64,000 bases of DNA from Halobacterium jilantaiense (GTDB lineage Archaea; Halobacteriota; Halobacteria; Halobacteriales; Halobacteriaceae): assembly GCF_900110535.1 (NCBI RefSeq), contig NZ_FOJA01000001.1:1957393-2021392 (forward strand), written 5' to 3'. Below the pieces are notes generated by a model that ran no database searches, was not told the DNA's origin, and saw only the letters and a list, made by a program, of their open reading frames with translations. Every line of letters starts with the position of its first letter. The first letter of the stretch is position 1. Of this stretch, positions 45,871 through 57,893 are shown piece after piece. A program made the position numbers and the translations under genes.

Positions 45871-47916
45871 GTGACGATTCAGTTCGATGTCGAGGACGAG
45901 GGGCACACGCTTCGGGTGCGAGACACCGCGGAGAGCGAGCGCTTCGACCTCCGGTTCGACAGCCGAATCGACCCCGAGGAGGCGTCCGTCGACGAGTTCA
46001 CGAACCCGGTCGACGCCGCCGTGGCGTTCGAGACGGCCGAACTCCACTACCCGCTCCGCAGACCCGCGGTGTTCTTCCGGGACGGCGAGATGGCCCACCG
46101 AACGGAGGACGCCGCGTCGAGCGAATGGCTCGACGCTGGAACGTACGAGATAGACGCGTCGCCGCCGGGGGCGAAGACGTACGTGAAAGTGTGTGGCGCG
46201 GCCGTCCGGGCGCGGTTCGAGGACAACCACACCGTGCTGGACGCCGACCCGGTGGCTCGCGTCGTCGTCGGCGTGCGCTCCCACCACGAGCAGCCCGCGG
46301 GCACCGTGACGACGACGGAGGACCCGCGGGACGTGATGGCGGCGGTGTCGACGTTCGGGTCGGCGCTGAAGACGGAGTTGCCGGACCGGTCGTGGCCGTC
46401 CCTCCGCGGCCACCCGCCAGCCGTCGAACTCGGGACGAGTCTGGACGTTCCGAGCCACGTCGAGCCGCCGGAGACCGGAATCACCGTCGAGGTGCCGCCG
46501 GACTACGGCGCGATTTTCACGGTGGCGCCGCTGGCGTACTACCTCGGCGCCACCGTCGAACCGGGGAACGAGTCGGCGCTGCACGCCGCCGGACGGACGG
46601 TACACTTCGACCGGGACGCCCTCGCGGCCGACGTCCGGGACTGCCTGGAGCACTGCCTCGTGCTGGACGGGGCCGTCCGGACGGTCGGCGCGTTCCCGTT
46701 CTGGACCGAGCAGACAGACGCCGTCGACGACCGCGTGGACCTGGACTACGAAGCGCTGTTCGACCTCCCACTGGACGAGCGCACCGCGGCCTACCTGGAG
46801 GTGCCGCGGTCGGCGACGACGGGACTGGTGGACTGGCACCTCACCGCAGACGTCGCCCCCGAACCCCGGTACGCTCCGGCACTGCCGTATCTCGCGTCGG
46901 AACTCGCTGCGGTGCGGAGCCCGCCGCCCGGGCCGACGCGAGTCGATCGGTCGCCGGTGCCCGACGCGCTCGCGCGGTCGCTCGACCAGCCGTCGAGAGC
47001 GGCGTCCGGAGTCGTCCGCCCGGCACCGACTGACACACCCGGCCACGTCTGGGCCGGAGAGGGCTTCGCGGTCGACGCGGCGAACCCCACCGTGGGGTCG
47101 TTCCGTCGGGGGTTCGACTGGCCGTCCGGAGCGGGGCCGCTGGACGTCCACGTCGTCTACAACGACGAACGCCTCGCAGCGCCGGACGAACTCGCGTACG
47201 ACGTCCACGAGACCGGGGACACCGACGTTCGCGTGTCGCACTCGCTGACGACGGCGGAGTTACAGGAGGCGCTGCTGTCGGAGACGGACTTCCTGCACTT
47301 CGTGGGGCACGTCACCGAACGGGGGATGGTGTGTCCGGACGGGGAACTGGACGTCCGCACGCTCCCGATGACCGGCGTGGGCGCGTTCTTCTTGAACGGG
47401 TGTCGGTCCTACGAGCAGGGGTTCGCGCTGCTGACGGCCGGGGCGGCGGGCGGTATCGTCACCGTCGACGACGTCGAAGACGGAGTGGCGGGTACAGTCG
47501 GCCGGGACGCGGCGATGCTGCTGGACGCCGGCTTCCCGCTGTACGGCGTGCTGGACGCGCTCGGCCAGACGGGGACGGACACGAGTCGGTACACTGCCCT
47601 CGGCGACCCGACGCTCACACTTCGCCGGAGCACGTCGGGTGCGGCAGGCCTCTGGAGCGCGACGACGGCCGAGCAACCCGGCGCGAACGGCGTGCCTCGG
47701 ACGATAGCATGGTACCCGAACGGCGAGAACGGTATCGGTTCCATGGCCAGCATGAACTACGGACCGCCCGAGCGACACTTCCTGTCGGCCCAGCCGACCA
47801 CGTGCTCGCTGTCCCGAGACACGCTCGCCGACATGCTGGCCACCGAAACCGGCCCGCTGCTCGTCGACGGCCGACTCCGGCGACCAGAAACGCTCTCGCC
47901 CGACGACTTCGCGTAG
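45871..47916 (+). CDS. CHAT-domain (caspase-like) protein, first of a tandem pair
   Basis: 681 residues from GTG 45871. The C-terminal third carries the CHAT peptidase pattern: DFLHFVGHVTERG with His480 and FFLNGCRSYEQG with Cys511, followed by GAAGGIVTVDDV and a strand-rich tail. The N-terminal 400 residues form an uncharacterised region (repeated FEVPPDYG, VDWHLTADVAPEP). No signal peptide. CHAT proteases in bacteria cleave partner proteins in programmed-death or defence modules. Here no gasdermin, TPR or toxin partner is adjacent. A 682-residue paralogue follows 76 bp downstream. Confidence 0.85.
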   Translation: MTIQFDVEDEGHTLRVRDTAESERFDLRFDSRIDPEEASVDEFTNPVDAAVAFETAELHYPLRRPAVFFRDGEMAHRTEDAASSEWLDAGTYEIDASPPGAKTYVKVCGAAVRARFEDNHTVLDADPVARVVVGVRSHHEQPAGTVTTTEDPRDVMAAVSTFGSALKTELPDRSWPSLRGHPPAVELGTSLDVPSHVEPPETGITVEVPPDYGAIFTVAPLAYYLGATVEPGNESALHAAGRTVHFDRDALAADVRDCLEHCLVLDGAVRTVGAFPFWTEQTDAVDDRVDLDYEALFDLPLDERTAAYLEVPRSATTGLVDWHLTADVAPEPRYAPALPYLASELAAVRSPPPGPTRVDRSPVPDALARSLDQPSRAASGVVRPAPTDTPGHVWAGEGFAVDAANPTVGSFRRGFDWPSGAGPLDVHVVYNDERLAAPDELAYDVHETGDTDVRVSHSLTTAELQEALLSETDFLHFVGHVTERGMVCPDGELDVRTLPMTGVGAFFLNGCRSYEQGFALLTAGAAGGIVTVDDVEDGVAGTVGRDAAMLLDAGFPLYGVLDALGQTGTDTSRYTALGDPTLTLRRSTSGAAGLWSATTAEQPGANGVPRTIAWYPNGENGIGSMASMNYGPPERHFLSAQPTTCSLSRDTLADMLATETGPLLVDGRLRRPETLSPDDFA

Positions 47917-47992: not shown

Positions 47993-50041
47993 GTGACGAT
48001 ACAGTTCGCAACAGTCGACGGCCGCAGTCTGCGCGTTCGAGATACGACCGAGAGCGAGCAGTTCACGCTGCGCGCCGACCGCGAACTCGCTCCCGAGGAG
48101 GCGTCCGTCGACGAGTTCACCAGCCCCGTCGACGCCGCCGTCGCCATCGACGCCGGCGAGCTCCATTTCCCCGTCTACCGTCCGGCCGTCTTCCTCGAAG
48201 ACGGAGAAGTCGTCCACCGAACGGAGGACGGTGGGTCGAGCGAGTGGCTCGACTCGGGGACGTACGAGATAGACGCGTCGCCGCCGGGCGCGAAGACGTA
48301 CGTGAAAGTGCACGACGCCGCTGTCCGCGGTCGATTCGAGGACGACCACACTGTGCTGGATATCGACCCCGCGGCGCGATTGGTGGTGGGCGTGCGTTCA
48401 CACCACGAGCGGCCCGCGGCGACGGTGCGGACGACGGAGGACCCGCGGGACGTGATGGCGGCGGTGTCGACGTTCGGGTCGGCGCTGAAGACGCAGTCGC
48501 CGGACCGGTCGTGGCCGACGCTCCGCGGCCATCCACCGGCAATCGAACTCGGGACGAGTCTGGCTGTGCCCGACGCAGTAGCACCACCGGAGACTGGCGT
48601 CACCATCGAGGTGCCGCCGGAGTACGGTCCGATTTTCACGGTGGCGCCGCTGGCGTACTACCTCGGTGCCACCGTCGAACCCGGAGCCGAGCCGCGGCTG
48701 CGGGCGGCCGGCGCGACCCGCGAGTTCGACCCGGACGCCCTCGCCAGCGAGGTGGCAGCGTGCCTGGAGCACTGCTTCGTCCTCGACGGCGTCGTCCGGA
48801 CAGTCGGCGTCTACCCGTTCCGCCACGAGCAGGCCGAACAGCTGGAGAAGCGCGTGGACCTGGACCACGAGGCGCTGTTCGACCGCCCGCTCGACGAGCG
48901 CACCGCGGCCTATCTGGACGTACCACGGTCGGCGACGACTGGGCTGGTGGGCTGGCACCTCACCGCAGACGTCGCGCCCGAACCCCGGTACGCCACGTCG
49001 CTCCCCTACCTCGTCGACGAACTCGCCATCGTTCGAAGTCCACCGCCGACACCCGAACCAGCCCAACGAGCGCCGGACCCGGACGCCCTCGCCCGCTCGC
49101 TCGGACAGACCACGGAAGCGACGGCGGACGTCGTCGTCCCCGACCCCGTCGACACGCCGGGGCACGCGTGGGTCGGCGAGGGGTTCGCGGTGGAGGCTGC
49201 AAACCCCACTGTGGGGTCGTTCCGGCGGGGATTCGAGTGGCCGTCTGGCGACGCGCCTCTCGACGTCCACGTCGTCTACAACGACCAGCGCATCGACGCA
49301 CCGGACGAACTCGCGTACGGGAACCACCCGACGGCCGAGACGAACGTTCGAGTGTCGCACTCGCTGACGACGGCGGAGTTACAGGAGGCGCTGCTGTCGG
49401 AGACGGACTTCCTGCACTTCGTGGGCCACGTCACGGAGCGGGGGATGGTGTGTCCGGACGGGGAACTGGACGTGCGGACGCTGCCGACGACGGGCGTGGG
49501 CGCGTTCTTCCTGAACGGGTGTCGGTCCTACGAGCAGGGGTTCGCACTGCTGACGGCCGGCGCGGCCGGAGGTATCGTCACGGTCGACGACGTCGACGAC
49601 GAGAACGCCGGCCGGATCGGACAGCAGGCGACGATGCTGCTAGACACCGGCGTCCCACTGTACGGTGTCCTCGATACGCTGGACCGAACTGGAACCGACA
49701 CTAGTCGGTACACGGTGCTCGGCGACCCAATGCTCACACTCCGCCGTTCGACCTCCAGTTTCGGACTCGTCAATTCGTTCGACGTCGACAGGGGAACAGC
49801 GAGTGTTGATTCGTTCCCGAGCACGGCGTACGCGTACCCTTCTGGCGAGAACAGTCTTGGCGGACACATGACGCTCCACCATCCAGAAACCGGAAATCAC
49901 CTGCTCTCGGCGAGAGGAGTCTCCGCCGACTTCTCGCGAGAGCAGCTCGCTCTCCACTTCGAAGAAGATACAGTGGCTACCCTACTCGACGGTAGCCTCG
50001 TTCTCAATACGGACCTCTCACTCGACGACTTCGACGCCTAG
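47993..50041 (+). CDS. CHAT-domain (caspase-like) protein, second of a tandem pair
   Basis: 682 residues from GTG 47993 (GTGACGATACAG, matching the GTGACGATTCAG of the first copy). Same architecture with His479 (LHFVGH) and Cys510 (FLNGC). Several blocks of DNA are identical to the first gene, including 74 bp at 49352-49425 versus 47233-47306, although flanks diverge at synonymous sites. The last 100 residues (from about 580) differ between copies. The stop overlaps the convergent TRAM gene by 4 bp. Possibly kept similar by gene conversion; substrates unknown. Confidence 0.85.
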   Translation: MTIQFATVDGRSLRVRDTTESEQFTLRADRELAPEEASVDEFTSPVDAAVAIDAGELHFPVYRPAVFLEDGEVVHRTEDGGSSEWLDSGTYEIDASPPGAKTYVKVHDAAVRGRFEDDHTVLDIDPAARLVVGVRSHHERPAATVRTTEDPRDVMAAVSTFGSALKTQSPDRSWPTLRGHPPAIELGTSLAVPDAVAPPETGVTIEVPPEYGPIFTVAPLAYYLGATVEPGAEPRLRAAGATREFDPDALASEVAACLEHCFVLDGVVRTVGVYPFRHEQAEQLEKRVDLDHEALFDRPLDERTAAYLDVPRSATTGLVGWHLTADVAPEPRYATSLPYLVDELAIVRSPPPTPEPAQRAPDPDALARSLGQTTEATADVVVPDPVDTPGHAWVGEGFAVEAANPTVGSFRRGFEWPSGDAPLDVHVVYNDQRIDAPDELAYGNHPTAETNVRVSHSLTTAELQEALLSETDFLHFVGHVTERGMVCPDGELDVRTLPTTGVGAFFLNGCRSYEQGFALLTAGAAGGIVTVDDVDDENAGRIGQQATMLLDTGVPLYGVLDTLDRTGTDTSRYTVLGDPMLTLRRSTSSFGLVNSFDVDRGTASVDSFPSTAYAYPSGENSLGGHMTLHHPETGNHLLSARGVSADFSREQLALHFEEDTVATLLDGSLVLNTDLSLDDFDA

Positions 50042-50502: not shown

Positions 50503-50731
50503 ACGTCACGTTGCTGGCCACCCGTCTAAACCCTTGCGGCACGCCCACTCCCGCGGGTTCCCTGCCAGCAGCCGAGCCGGCTATCACCGTCGGTGTCGGC
50601 CGCTCACCGGAGCGACGCGGTTCACGCCGAGCGTCGCTGCCAGCGGGAACGCGACGACGGCGCGTTCCTGCGAGCCCGACTGTGGATAGCACTCAGCAGG
50701 GCACTGCCGACCGGTAGAACACGAACGCGCC

Positions 50732-50901
50732 ACGCCAGCGGCGTGCGTTCGACGACCTGACGCGTGTACCTTTTCGGGGCGCTCACTTCGTTCGCGCCGC
50801 AAAATCTACGCCGAGAGAGCTACGCTCTCCCGAGCCCTGCCTCGCGGTGCTCGGCAGGACGCTAAAAACCGCTACGCCAGCGGCGTGCGTTCGACGACCT
50901 G
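50732..50901. repeat. hairpin element flanked by a duplicate of the radical SAM gene 3' end
   Basis: A 28-bp sequence at 50732-50759 is an exact copy of 50874-50901, the last bases of the radical SAM gene; the stop triplet at 50872-50874 is not preserved in the outer copy. Weaker identity (GTAC) continues to 50769. Between the copies are CCTTTTCGG, an imperfect GC hairpin, CAAAATCTACGC, a perfect hairpin GAGAGC-TAC-GCTCTC (50814-50828), a CCTGCC/GGCAGG hairpin and GCTAAAAACCG. The minus-strand T5 tract directly behind the gene (50864-50869) could end transcription. No open frame of note. The remainder of 50503-50731 has no supported gene. A relative lies at 56714-56956. Confidence 0.8.
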
Positions 50902-51867
50902 GCCGTCGTACGTCGGGTACTGTTCGACGATCTCGCCCTCGCCGATGTCGCCGTCCTCGACCATCTCCTCGAGGAGCCACCACGCCACCTCGACGTGCTC
51001 TGACTTCACGGTGTAGAACTCCTCGGGGACGCCGAGCGCGCGGAAGCGCTCCGGTTCGACGGTGGTCTTCCCGTAGACGAGCGTACCGTCGTCCGTGATT
51101 TCGTCGAACTCCCGGCGGACGTTCCGCGCCATCCGCTTCAGCCGCGAGCGGTGCTGGGCGGCGTCCTTGAAGACGCTCGTACAGAAGTACACCTTCTCGT
51201 GGTCGGCCATTTCTTCGAGGATGGCCTCCTTCGAGCCGTCGACGGCGCTCATGTGGTCCTCCTGCAGTTCGTAGCCGGCCTCCTGCATGCGCTCGTAGTT
51301 CCCGTCGCTCATCTCGAACTCGTTGACGTTGCAGAAGTCCGCCGCGCCCTCGTCGAGGAAGTCGAGGAACTCCTGCTCGGCGCGGATGCCCGGAATCTCG
51401 AACGCCGGGGTGAGACCTTCCTCGCGTGCGATGTACAGAATTTCCTCCCACTCGGTGCCGTGCATGTCGCCCCACAGCTCGTACGGCGGGTGGAAGCGAA
51501 TCTCGTCGAGGCCGGCCTCGCTCAGCCGCCGCATGTTCTCGCGGCCGCCCGTGATGCCCGTGTAGAGATGTGTGTGGTGGTCCTCGCCGAACTCGTCTTT
51601 CAGCCTGCGGAGGTACCGACACGTCCGGTCGAGTACCTCCTGGGGCTCGCCGCCCGTGATGGAGGTCCCGAGCGCGTCCATCAGCTTCGCCTCCTTCACG
51701 ATGTCGTCCTCGGACTCGACGGGGCGCTCGTTGGCGTACACCTGGTGGACGTTCTTCCGGTTCTCGCCGAGCGGACAGTAGAAGCAGTCACGCTGGTCGC
51801 AGTACCCGTAGACGAAGAGGACCATCTTCCCCCCTTCCGCGCACTGCTCGCAGCCCTTGGAGATCAT
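50872..51867 (-). CDS. radical SAM enzyme
   Basis: 331 residues from ATG 51867. The Fe-S cluster Cys are C23, C28 and C31 in YCDQRDCFYCPLG, a CX4CX2C spacing instead of the usual CX3CX2C. The SAM-binding GGEP follows (TSITGGEPQE, about 70-79). The barrel continues with TGITGGRENMRRL and ENEFEM-type strand ends. Two more Cys (CEQCAEGG at residues 6-9) sit at the N-terminus. The reaction is unknown. The in-frame start at 51900 would add 11 residues. A TATA-like run (CTTTTTGAG, reverse, 51895-51903) precedes it. Its 3' end is duplicated in the element below. Confidence 0.88.
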   Translation of the reverse strand: MISKGCEQCAEGGKMVLFVYGYCDQRDCFYCPLGENRKNVHQVYANERPVESEDDIVKEAKLMDALGTSITGGEPQEVLDRTCRYLRRLKDEFGEDHHTHLYTGITGGRENMRRLSEAGLDEIRFHPPYELWGDMHGTEWEEILYIAREEGLTPAFEIPGIRAEQEFLDFLDEGAADFCNVNEFEMSDGNYERMQEAGYELQEDHMSAVDGSKEAILEEMADHEKVYFCTSVFKDAAQHRSRLKRMARNVRREFDEITDDGTLVYGKTTVEPERFRALGVPEEFYTVKSEHVEVAWWLLEEMVEDGDIGEGEIVEQYPTYDGQVVERTPLA

Positions 51868-51981
51868 TCGTTGAACAACTGGTACTGCTCGCAGACTCAA
51901 AAAGCGTGCGAAAGGGGTCGGCAGGCCGCCGAGCGCGCTGCTCGCGGGTCGCGACCGCGCGGAGTGCTCCGAAAGTCGGGC

Positions 51982-56713: not shown

Positions 56714-56956
56714 CCTCAGATGCTCGGCGGTTCGCCGCCGAACTCCTGCGAGTACCTTTTTCGGCCTCGGGTGCGCTCCGCGCACCGCTCGGCGCAAAAA
56801 GCTACGCTAAAAACTCCTCGCCCTCGCAGTGCTCACGGTTTCACCGTTCGCGTCTTCCGAGGTCCTCCGGACCTCGCCGCTCGGGCGAGTGAACCGCGGC
56901 CTGCGGCCGCGGATGCAATCTTCCTCAGACGCTCGGCGGTTCGCCGCCGAACTCCT
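56714..56956. repeat. hairpin element flanked by a duplicate of the etfA 3' end
   Basis: The outer copy 56714-56747 repeats 34 bp of 56923-56956, the end of etfA, with one mismatch; the outer copy still has a stop codon. Between are AGTACCTTTTTCGG, the hairpin GGTGCGC-TCC-GCGCACC (56770-56786), GCAAAAAGCTACGCTAAAAACTC, an ACGGT-TTC-ACCGT hairpin (56835-56847), GAGGTCC-TCC-GGACCTC (56859-56875) and CCGCGGCC-TGC-GGCCGCGG (56894-56912). All four stems carry 3-base loops. The order and sequence of the GTACC-T-tract-hairpin-CAAAA-CTACGC-TAAAAA core match the element at 50732. No gene seen within. Confidence 0.8.
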
Positions 56957-57893
56957 CGATGAGCGCGGGCACGACGTCGAAGAGGTCGCCGACGATGCCG
57001 TAGTCGGCGATGTCGTAGATGGGCGCGTTCGGGTCCGTGTTGATGGCGATGATGGTGTCGGCACCCTTCATCCCGGCGACGTGCTGGACCGCGCCAGAGA
57101 TGCCGATGGCGAGGTAGACGTCCGGCGTCACCTGCTTGCCGGACTGACCGACCTGCCGGTTCTTCGGGAGCCAGCCGTTGTCCACGATGGGACGCGAGGA
57201 CGAGAGGGTCGCGCCAGTCGTCTCGGCGAGCGCCTCGACCAGTTCGAGGTTCTCCTCCTCCTCGATGCCGCGGCCGATGGAGACGAGGAAGTTCGCGTCG
57301 GCGATGTCGACGTCGCCGCCGCCGACCTCCTCGAAGCCCTTCACGGTGGAGCCGACGGCGTCTTCGTCGACGTCGACGTCGAACGTCGAGACCTCGGCGT
57401 CGCCGACGCCCTCGGCGGCCGGCCACTCGGCCCCTCGAATGGAGACGACGAACGGCCCGTCAGTGACCTCGACGGTCGTCTCGACCTTCGAGCCGTACAT
57501 CTCGCGCGTGACTTCCAGCGCGCCGTCGTACGCCAGGTCGATGGCGTCCGAGACGTACGTCCGGCCGGTCCGGGTGGCGACGGCCGGCGCGTAATCCAGG
57601 CCGTTCACGCTGTTCGGCACGAGGACGAACTCGGCGTCGAGGTCGTCTGCGAGCGCCTCGACGGCCTGCGCGTAGACGTCGTGGTTGAACTCCTCACCGT
57701 GCTCGACGGCGTGCACGTGGTCGACGCCCTCGCGGTTCAGGTCCTCGGCGAACGACTCCGTGTCCCCGGAGACAACGGCCGCGTGCAGGTCGGTGCCGGC
57801 GGCGTCCGCGAGTTCGCGGCCCGCGGTCAGCAGCTCGAAGCTCACGTCGCGGAGGTCACCGCGGCGGTGGTCGGCGACGGCGAGTACGGTCAT
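56925..57893 (-). CDS. etfA: electron transfer flavoprotein subunit alpha
   Basis: 322 residues from ATG 57893, overlapping the etfB stop by 4 bases. FAD-binding C-terminal domain motifs: SSRPIVDNGWLPKNRQVGQSGKQVTPDVYLAIGISGAVQHVAGM, then AINTDPNAPIYDIADYGIVGDLFDVVPALIEE. With etfB it forms the heterodimer that moves electrons from acyl-CoA or amine dehydrogenases to the quinone pool. No dehydrogenase is adjacent. Its last 34 bp are repeated 209 bp downstream. Confidence 0.96.
   Translation of the reverse strand: MTVLAVADHRRGDLRDVSFELLTAGRELADAAGTDLHAAVVSGDTESFAEDLNREGVDHVHAVEHGEEFNHDVYAQAVEALADDLDAEFVLVPNSVNGLDYAPAVATRTGRTYVSDAIDLAYDGALEVTREMYGSKVETTVEVTDGPFVVSIRGAEWPAAEGVGDAEVSTFDVDVDEDAVGSTVKGFEEVGGGDVDIADANFLVSIGRGIEEEENLELVEALAETTGATLSSSRPIVDNGWLPKNRQVGQSGKQVTPDVYLAIGISGAVQHVAGMKGADTIIAINTDPNAPIYDIADYGIVGDLFDVVPALIEEFGGEPPSV

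Follow-up and report, generated by a model that had tools for sequence, protein, structure and literature searches.

A non-coding element between two copies of a gene end in Halobacterium jilantaiense and other Halobacteria

Integrative elements that insert at gene 3′ ends keep the gene intact, and the displaced original end, with functional changes, lies beyond the insert. Classical IS elements and MITEs are recognized by terminal inverted repeats and a target duplication of short, fixed length. Elements of the IS1549/IS1634 type measure 1.5-2 kb and have a DDE transposase and terminal inverted repeats; their direct duplications are long and variable, 8-514 bp (PMC2266710). Haloarchaea also harbor short, mostly non-coding, dispersed elements: MITEs and SMRs with inverted terminal repeats, and PATEs, which have near-terminal palindromes and no inverted terminal repeats. 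Insertion of PATEs and SMRs duplicates no target sequence, and none of the three groups is described there as copying gene ends (PMC3119063). As for transcript ends, a Haloferax reporter had 95% of its transcripts terminated by an oligo-T stretch (PMC7237163).

In the window analyzed here, a stretch of 64,000 nucleotides from Halobacterium jilantaiense, a radical SAM gene is followed by a short non-coding element and then by a second copy of the gene's own last bases. We refer to the gene end as E, to the element between as T, to the second copy as E′ and to the arrangement as E-T-E′. The duplication is long and variable as in IS1549/IS1634-type elements, but T is only ~40-177 bp, non-coding, devoid of terminal inverted repeats and placed at stop codons. 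It thus has neither the inverted repeats nor the fixed, short duplication of a classical IS or MITE. T is like the haloarchaeal repeats in being short, non-coding and dispersed, and perhaps like PATEs in its hairpins; as in PATEs, the inverted terminal repeats of MITEs and SMRs are lacking, and many T loci carry E/E′ duplications, unlike PATEs and IS605-derived elements or SMRs. A duplicated gene end flanks the insert, as in the integrative elements of gene 3′ ends, but T has no integrase at its ~40-177 bp, and its target ends are unrelated and have no common core; the two share a logic, not an anatomy. The T-tracts past the stop codon are placed like those of archaeal oligo-T terminators as seen in Haloferax (PMC7237163), but ordinary terminators are not dispersed sequence families between duplicated gene ends. 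In the open-access literature, to which our search, and so any claim of novelty, is limited, neither the re-copying of gene ends in this manner nor a mobile element that would fit turned up.

The radical SAM gene end and its second copy

An earlier note on this DNA had reported an exact 28-bp repeat, and 50732-50759 is indeed identical to 50874-50901 (28/28). The repeat grows to 32 bp with one mismatch (97%) at a start-to-start distance of 142 bp (Table 1). Because the radical SAM ORF is read from the minus strand and its stop falls in the right-hand copy, this copy is the true gene end. This ORF gives a weak match to the NCBIfam family variant_rSAM (E 2e-4, under the family cut-off), and an orthologue is present in 130 of 146 genomes of the order. 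The interval between the copies had been called a non-coding string of hairpins, and likewise we see no gene in it, only three hairpins and oligo-A/T tracts. Two reading frames, 50783-51622 (-) and 50847-51098 (+), were rejected as genes because they are out-of-frame runs across the radical SAM gene. An Rfam scan of the region returned no match. Compared with shuffled sequences, the stability of the whole stretch is ordinary (z = -1.1); as it is not unusually stable for its composition, our case is built on comparison rather than on folding energy.

Table 1. Features of the two E-T-E′ loci in the window; the oligo-T tracts and the ETF-alpha gene name are read from the sequence.
Feature	Position	Strand	Remarks
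Radical SAM protein gene	50872..51900	-	342 codons from TTG; stop TAG at 50872-50874; from the ORF list
E, functional 3′ end of the radical SAM gene	50870..50901	-	32 bp including the stop and 2 nt beyond
T at the radical SAM gene	50760..50869	-	110 bp, non-coding; in gene orientation GTTTTTAGCG-hairpin-hairpin-GCGTAGATTTTGCGG-hairpin-GAAAAGGTACACGCGT; more copies in the same genome
First T5 tract	50864..50868	-	candidate terminator; few nt past the stop, gene orientation
Second T4 tract	50801..50804	-	gene orientation
Opposite-strand T4 tract	50771..50774	+	A4 of the AAAAGGT right-end motif common to other copies; candidate terminator for converging transcription
E′, second copy of the radical SAM gene end	50728..50759	-	31/32 identical; TGG where E has the stop TAG
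ETF-alpha-like gene (electron-transfer-flavoprotein alpha)	56925..57893	-	second E-T-E′ target in the window, 6 kb away; putative name
E of the ETF-alpha-like gene	56923..56956	-	34 bp including the stop
T at the ETF-alpha-like gene	56748..56922	-	long type, 175 bp: 5′ hairpins, GTTTTTAGCGTAGCTTTTTGCG, hairpin, GAAAAAGGTACTCGC
E′ of the ETF-alpha-like gene	56714..56747	-	33/34 identical

The repeat is not a chance occurrence, given that E-T-E′ recurs at 22 other orthologous loci and that controls with mispaired flanks score low. In this flank-swap control, mispaired flanks reach 11-12 at the 95th percentile, and duplicated loci score 18-102; a chance origin of E/E′ repeats was dismissed on these grounds. 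In-frame read-through from E into E′ was also dismissed, because the spacing is not constant modulo 3.

Recurrence across the order and dispersal of T

We found E-T-E′ at 23 of 106 different radical SAM loci of the order, spread over eight families. At each of them, E′ consists of the species' own last 21-87 nt, placed 61-250 bp downstream of the stop. No comparable copy lies farther out at the 106 loci, for which the flank extends to 6 kb in ~60 and to ~1-1.8 kb in the rest. The full T motif accompanies 20 of the 23 duplicated loci and 6 of the 83 others (Fisher p 2e-13). On the gene tree, the presence of E-T-E′ needs 20 changes, with at least eight gains or losses forced by well-supported branches. 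This count is not clearly below that of shuffled labels (mean 21.0), indicating that E-T-E′ is gained and lost quickly. Such patchy presence does not agree with one old structure kept in all relatives, the alternative that the earlier note had set against insertion.

Single-end loci, which that note had proposed to look for, do exist in close relatives (L015, L012 and L020 against the duplicated L009; L379 against L381). In two cases, the native flank is found behind E′: at L009, E′ together with its flank aligns to L015 and L012 across their only gene end and the flank behind it, and at L381, E′ is followed by TACTGCCGA, matching the empty congener L379. The element is also absent from L003, the window's nearest relative, where the flank is too diverged for a clean join.

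T copies follow a common layout of a hairpin, two T-tracts ~10 bp apart, a further hairpin, and an A-tract with GGT. Searching with the region gave further T-like matches in the same genome and across the genus Halobacterium. The pattern TTTTTGCG-N22-52-AAAAAGGT has 51 exact matches in 12 of 13 Halobacterium genomes, and a second pattern, TTTTTGGTSCAGATTTTT, has 85 matches in 22 of 59 genomes of the order; reversed versions of both gave no match. At least 120 stretches of viral contigs matched a short T pattern, which is too unspecific for this use. The ends of 16 T elements have no terminal inverted repeats (mean score 5.8, against 5.1 for shuffled ends). The covariation test of the T core was run on an automatic alignment that put few pairs in the last hairpin. 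At the loci L209-L288 (Haloarcula, Halococcus, Natronococcus, Natrinema and others), T is of the long type, and many copies sit between converging genes with their end abutting the stop of the right-hand gene; most of these loci have no duplicated gene end. L267 has the T core in tandem copy.

T copies either follow a stop codon or lie where two genes converge, and their oligo-T tracts face both neighbors. That the T5 next to the stop provides a terminator, as suggested in the earlier note, fits the T-tracts seen beside the stop, and the window's T5 tract follows its stop as soon as an archaeal oligo-T signal would. Because oligo-T is so efficient in Haloferax, bidirectional termination is a natural reading, and we regard T as a candidate bidirectional terminator with oligo-T on both strands.

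Genes other than the radical SAM gene are also affected; their names are putative. In addition to the ETF-alpha-like gene (Table 1), ABCE1 has E-T-E′ in the H. jilantaiense genome and two other Halobacterium genomes (0 of 29 other loci examined), and an SDR gene has it in five genomes. More targets are aminopeptidase T, HMG-CoA synthase, a diphthine-ammonia-ligase-like gene, a malic-enzyme-like gene, IleRS (isoleucyl-tRNA synthetase) and others. By their sequences, all look like widely conserved core genes, several of them hit again in different families. At L022, L331, L088 and L499, T-E′ units form tandem arrays. The gene ends and T units are identical or near-identical in the arrays of L499 (the malic-enzyme-like gene, contig 94 of G070) and L088 (aminopeptidase T, G009), which suggests recent amplification.

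Only one side of the arrangement has precise junctions; the other is loose. The E/E′ match mostly stops 0-3 nt past the stop codon (7-8 nt in L485 and L504), and the gap between the A-tract-GGT end of T and E′ is 6-8 nt in 24 of 38 cases. The position within the gene at which E′ starts ranges from about -21 to -114 and clusters around -30 and -60; the duplication is accordingly variable in length, about 20-114 bp.

Differences between E and E′ and the origin of the arrangement

At the radical SAM gene, E and E′ differ by 47 synonymous and 9 nonsynonymous codons, and stops are still stops in 8 of 12 changed stop codons. Third codon positions account for 18 of the 21 changes derived in E′ (p 1e-6) and 16 of the 19 derived in E, in tests that assume independent changes, which related sequences do not fully provide. 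At discordant sites, relatives side with E 39 times and with E′ 38 times. L381 has an in-frame length difference before the stop, SSGQSGSGQSAAGD in E versus SSGTDADSGQSAAGD in E′. The bias is weaker in the other genes (22 versus 13 codon changes; third positions 25/39), and cases in which E and E′ are exactly alike, including the window's own (28/28), give no sign of allelic exchange. Mostly synonymous differences and stop-for-stop swaps indicate that E′ functions as a gene end or did so until recently. In a copy without function since insertion, changes should fall on every position, so a coding-like E′ is not a decaying target duplication, and for the radical SAM gene the codon-position tests rule out neutral decay. 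E and E′ would thus seem to have been joined from different lineages, or to have been exchanged repeatedly with single-end alleles. The earlier note had proposed a mobile element with a target duplication of 28-38 bp. An element at a gene end, with copies elsewhere, a long direct duplication and empty sites are all borne out; the length range is not, as we observe 21-114 bp, nor does the second copy, diverging mostly like coding sequence, behave as a simple target duplication.

We see an even chance that the arrangement arises in two steps, in which T inserts with a long target duplication and E-T-E′ is then spread, refreshed, lost or amplified by homologous recombination. T would be a small, non-coding, terminator-like mobile element of Halobacteria that moves as a unit. 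In a new insertion, presumably following a staggered cut, T would come to lie directly after the stop of a conserved gene whose last 20-114 bp are duplicated, giving gene-E-T-E′-native flank. E would keep the gene whole, T would supply oligo-T on both strands, and E′ would be the displaced original end. Since the gene body plus E adjoin T on one side and E′ adjoins it on the opposite side, the E-T-E′ allele could enter any lineage with the same gene by ordinary homologous recombination; haloarchaeal species often recombine with one another (PMC4500145). The recipient's own gene end would turn into E′, so that E and E′ would differ as two functional alleles do. Recombination between the 30-60 bp repeats would remove T or multiply T-E′ units, which would produce both the patchy presence and the arrays. 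Several observations count against this account: no transposase, integrase or reverse transcriptase was linked to T, no donor and recipient pair was caught for the passage of E-T-E′ by recombination, the left end of T is variable, and many T copies have no E′, especially long-type copies between converging genes.

The strongest rival, which we consider unlikely but well worth weighing, dispenses with transposition. A broken chromosome would copy the end of the same gene together with its native T from a related chromosome, copying would halt at the base of the T hairpin, and the product would be linked to the resident gene at a point 21-114 bp short of the resident stop. In that case the proximal E would be imported and E′ would be the resident end, which accounts for the likeness of the two to functional alleles, for the position of T right at the stop codon (where it natively lies), for the choice of conserved core genes as targets and for the native flank behind E′. 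T without E′ after the radical SAM stop, as at L366, L369, L384 and L403, is also in line with such copying. It would, however, require one fixed end base of T across many unrelated genes. At L002 and L021, E looks foreign in its last 7-9 nt only, and the copies of L485 and L504 share nucleotides past the stop as a target duplication would. These shared nucleotides favor target duplication, whereas the allele-like differences favor capture or exchange.

The arrays of identical or near-identical T-E′ units at L022, L088 and L499 could also stem from an old local tandem duplication of E-T that unequal crossing-over and gene conversion kept homogeneous in the absence of any mobile element, and the T/E′ junction sequence is alike in several families. 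We nevertheless find this explanation improbable, given that most structures end in E′ and other flank (native in two cases) rather than in T, that many T copies lie at unrelated places, and that Halobacterium alone has three different T sequences (in G000, in G008 and in G004/G011); numerous synonymous differences would not survive conversion from E, and the empty sites and scattered presence already speak against it. Least probable, in our view, are remnants of site-specific integration by a tyrosine integrase, in which the gene 3′ end was regenerated (attL/attR) and the element body was lost. Integrases do leave 3′-end duplications, a Haloquadratum prophage is marked by a 22-nt tRNA duplication (PMC3119063), and several tRNA genes of the H. 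jilantaiense genome have 3′ ends duplicated 106-142 bp apart. Against such remnants, genes whose ends are unrelated in sequence share one T, and its shortness and conservation are not those of a random deletion remnant; at the radical SAM loci whose flank reaches 6 kb, no larger insert separates E from E′ over that distance.

If the two-step account with recombination is correct, the duplicated end would serve as a homology arm for the host's own recombination, and no transposase would be needed for spread. We tentatively raise the possibility of a new class of archaeal mobile element, a stop-codon-specific, non-coding terminator that uses a gene-end duplication of 20-114 bp as an interspecies homology arm via host recombination. 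In Halobacteria, conserved gene 3′ ends are time and again replaced and re-copied around T, a layer of change that ordinary annotation misses. The 23 radical SAM loci and the several other genes are natural replicates, with which one can ask how a terminator spreads, why insertion at a stop codon can be so precise, and whether a duplicated gene end can act as an interspecies homology arm.

Other local repeats in the H. jilantaiense genome

Six tRNA genes of this genome (G000, contig C1), at 211335 (Thr), 1356469 (Asn), 1361699 (Arg), 1406132 (Phe), 1462735 (Ala) and 1620656 (Lys), have their last 21-25 nt, with up to 13 nt of flank, repeated downstream at the above spacing, with hairpins between (L435, L462, L463, L465, L468 and L476). 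An inverted copy of the T-arm precedes the second tRNA end in at least three of them (Ala, Lys and Thr), and a third fragment is present at the Ala and Phe genes. These repeats could be integration scars or the outcome of the same kind of event as in the protein genes. The analysis covered 1.2 Mb of this genome.

At C1 1313438, 1314413 and 1628670, stretches of non-coding DNA (19-156 bp) are duplicated locally, 117-383 bp apart; some contain a TTTAAG-like promoter motif, and they are unlike the gene-end cases. Within the window, just past a TRAM gene, two adjacent and very similar long ORFs (45871-47916 and 47993-50041; 681 and 682 aa) are apparently a tandem gene duplication.
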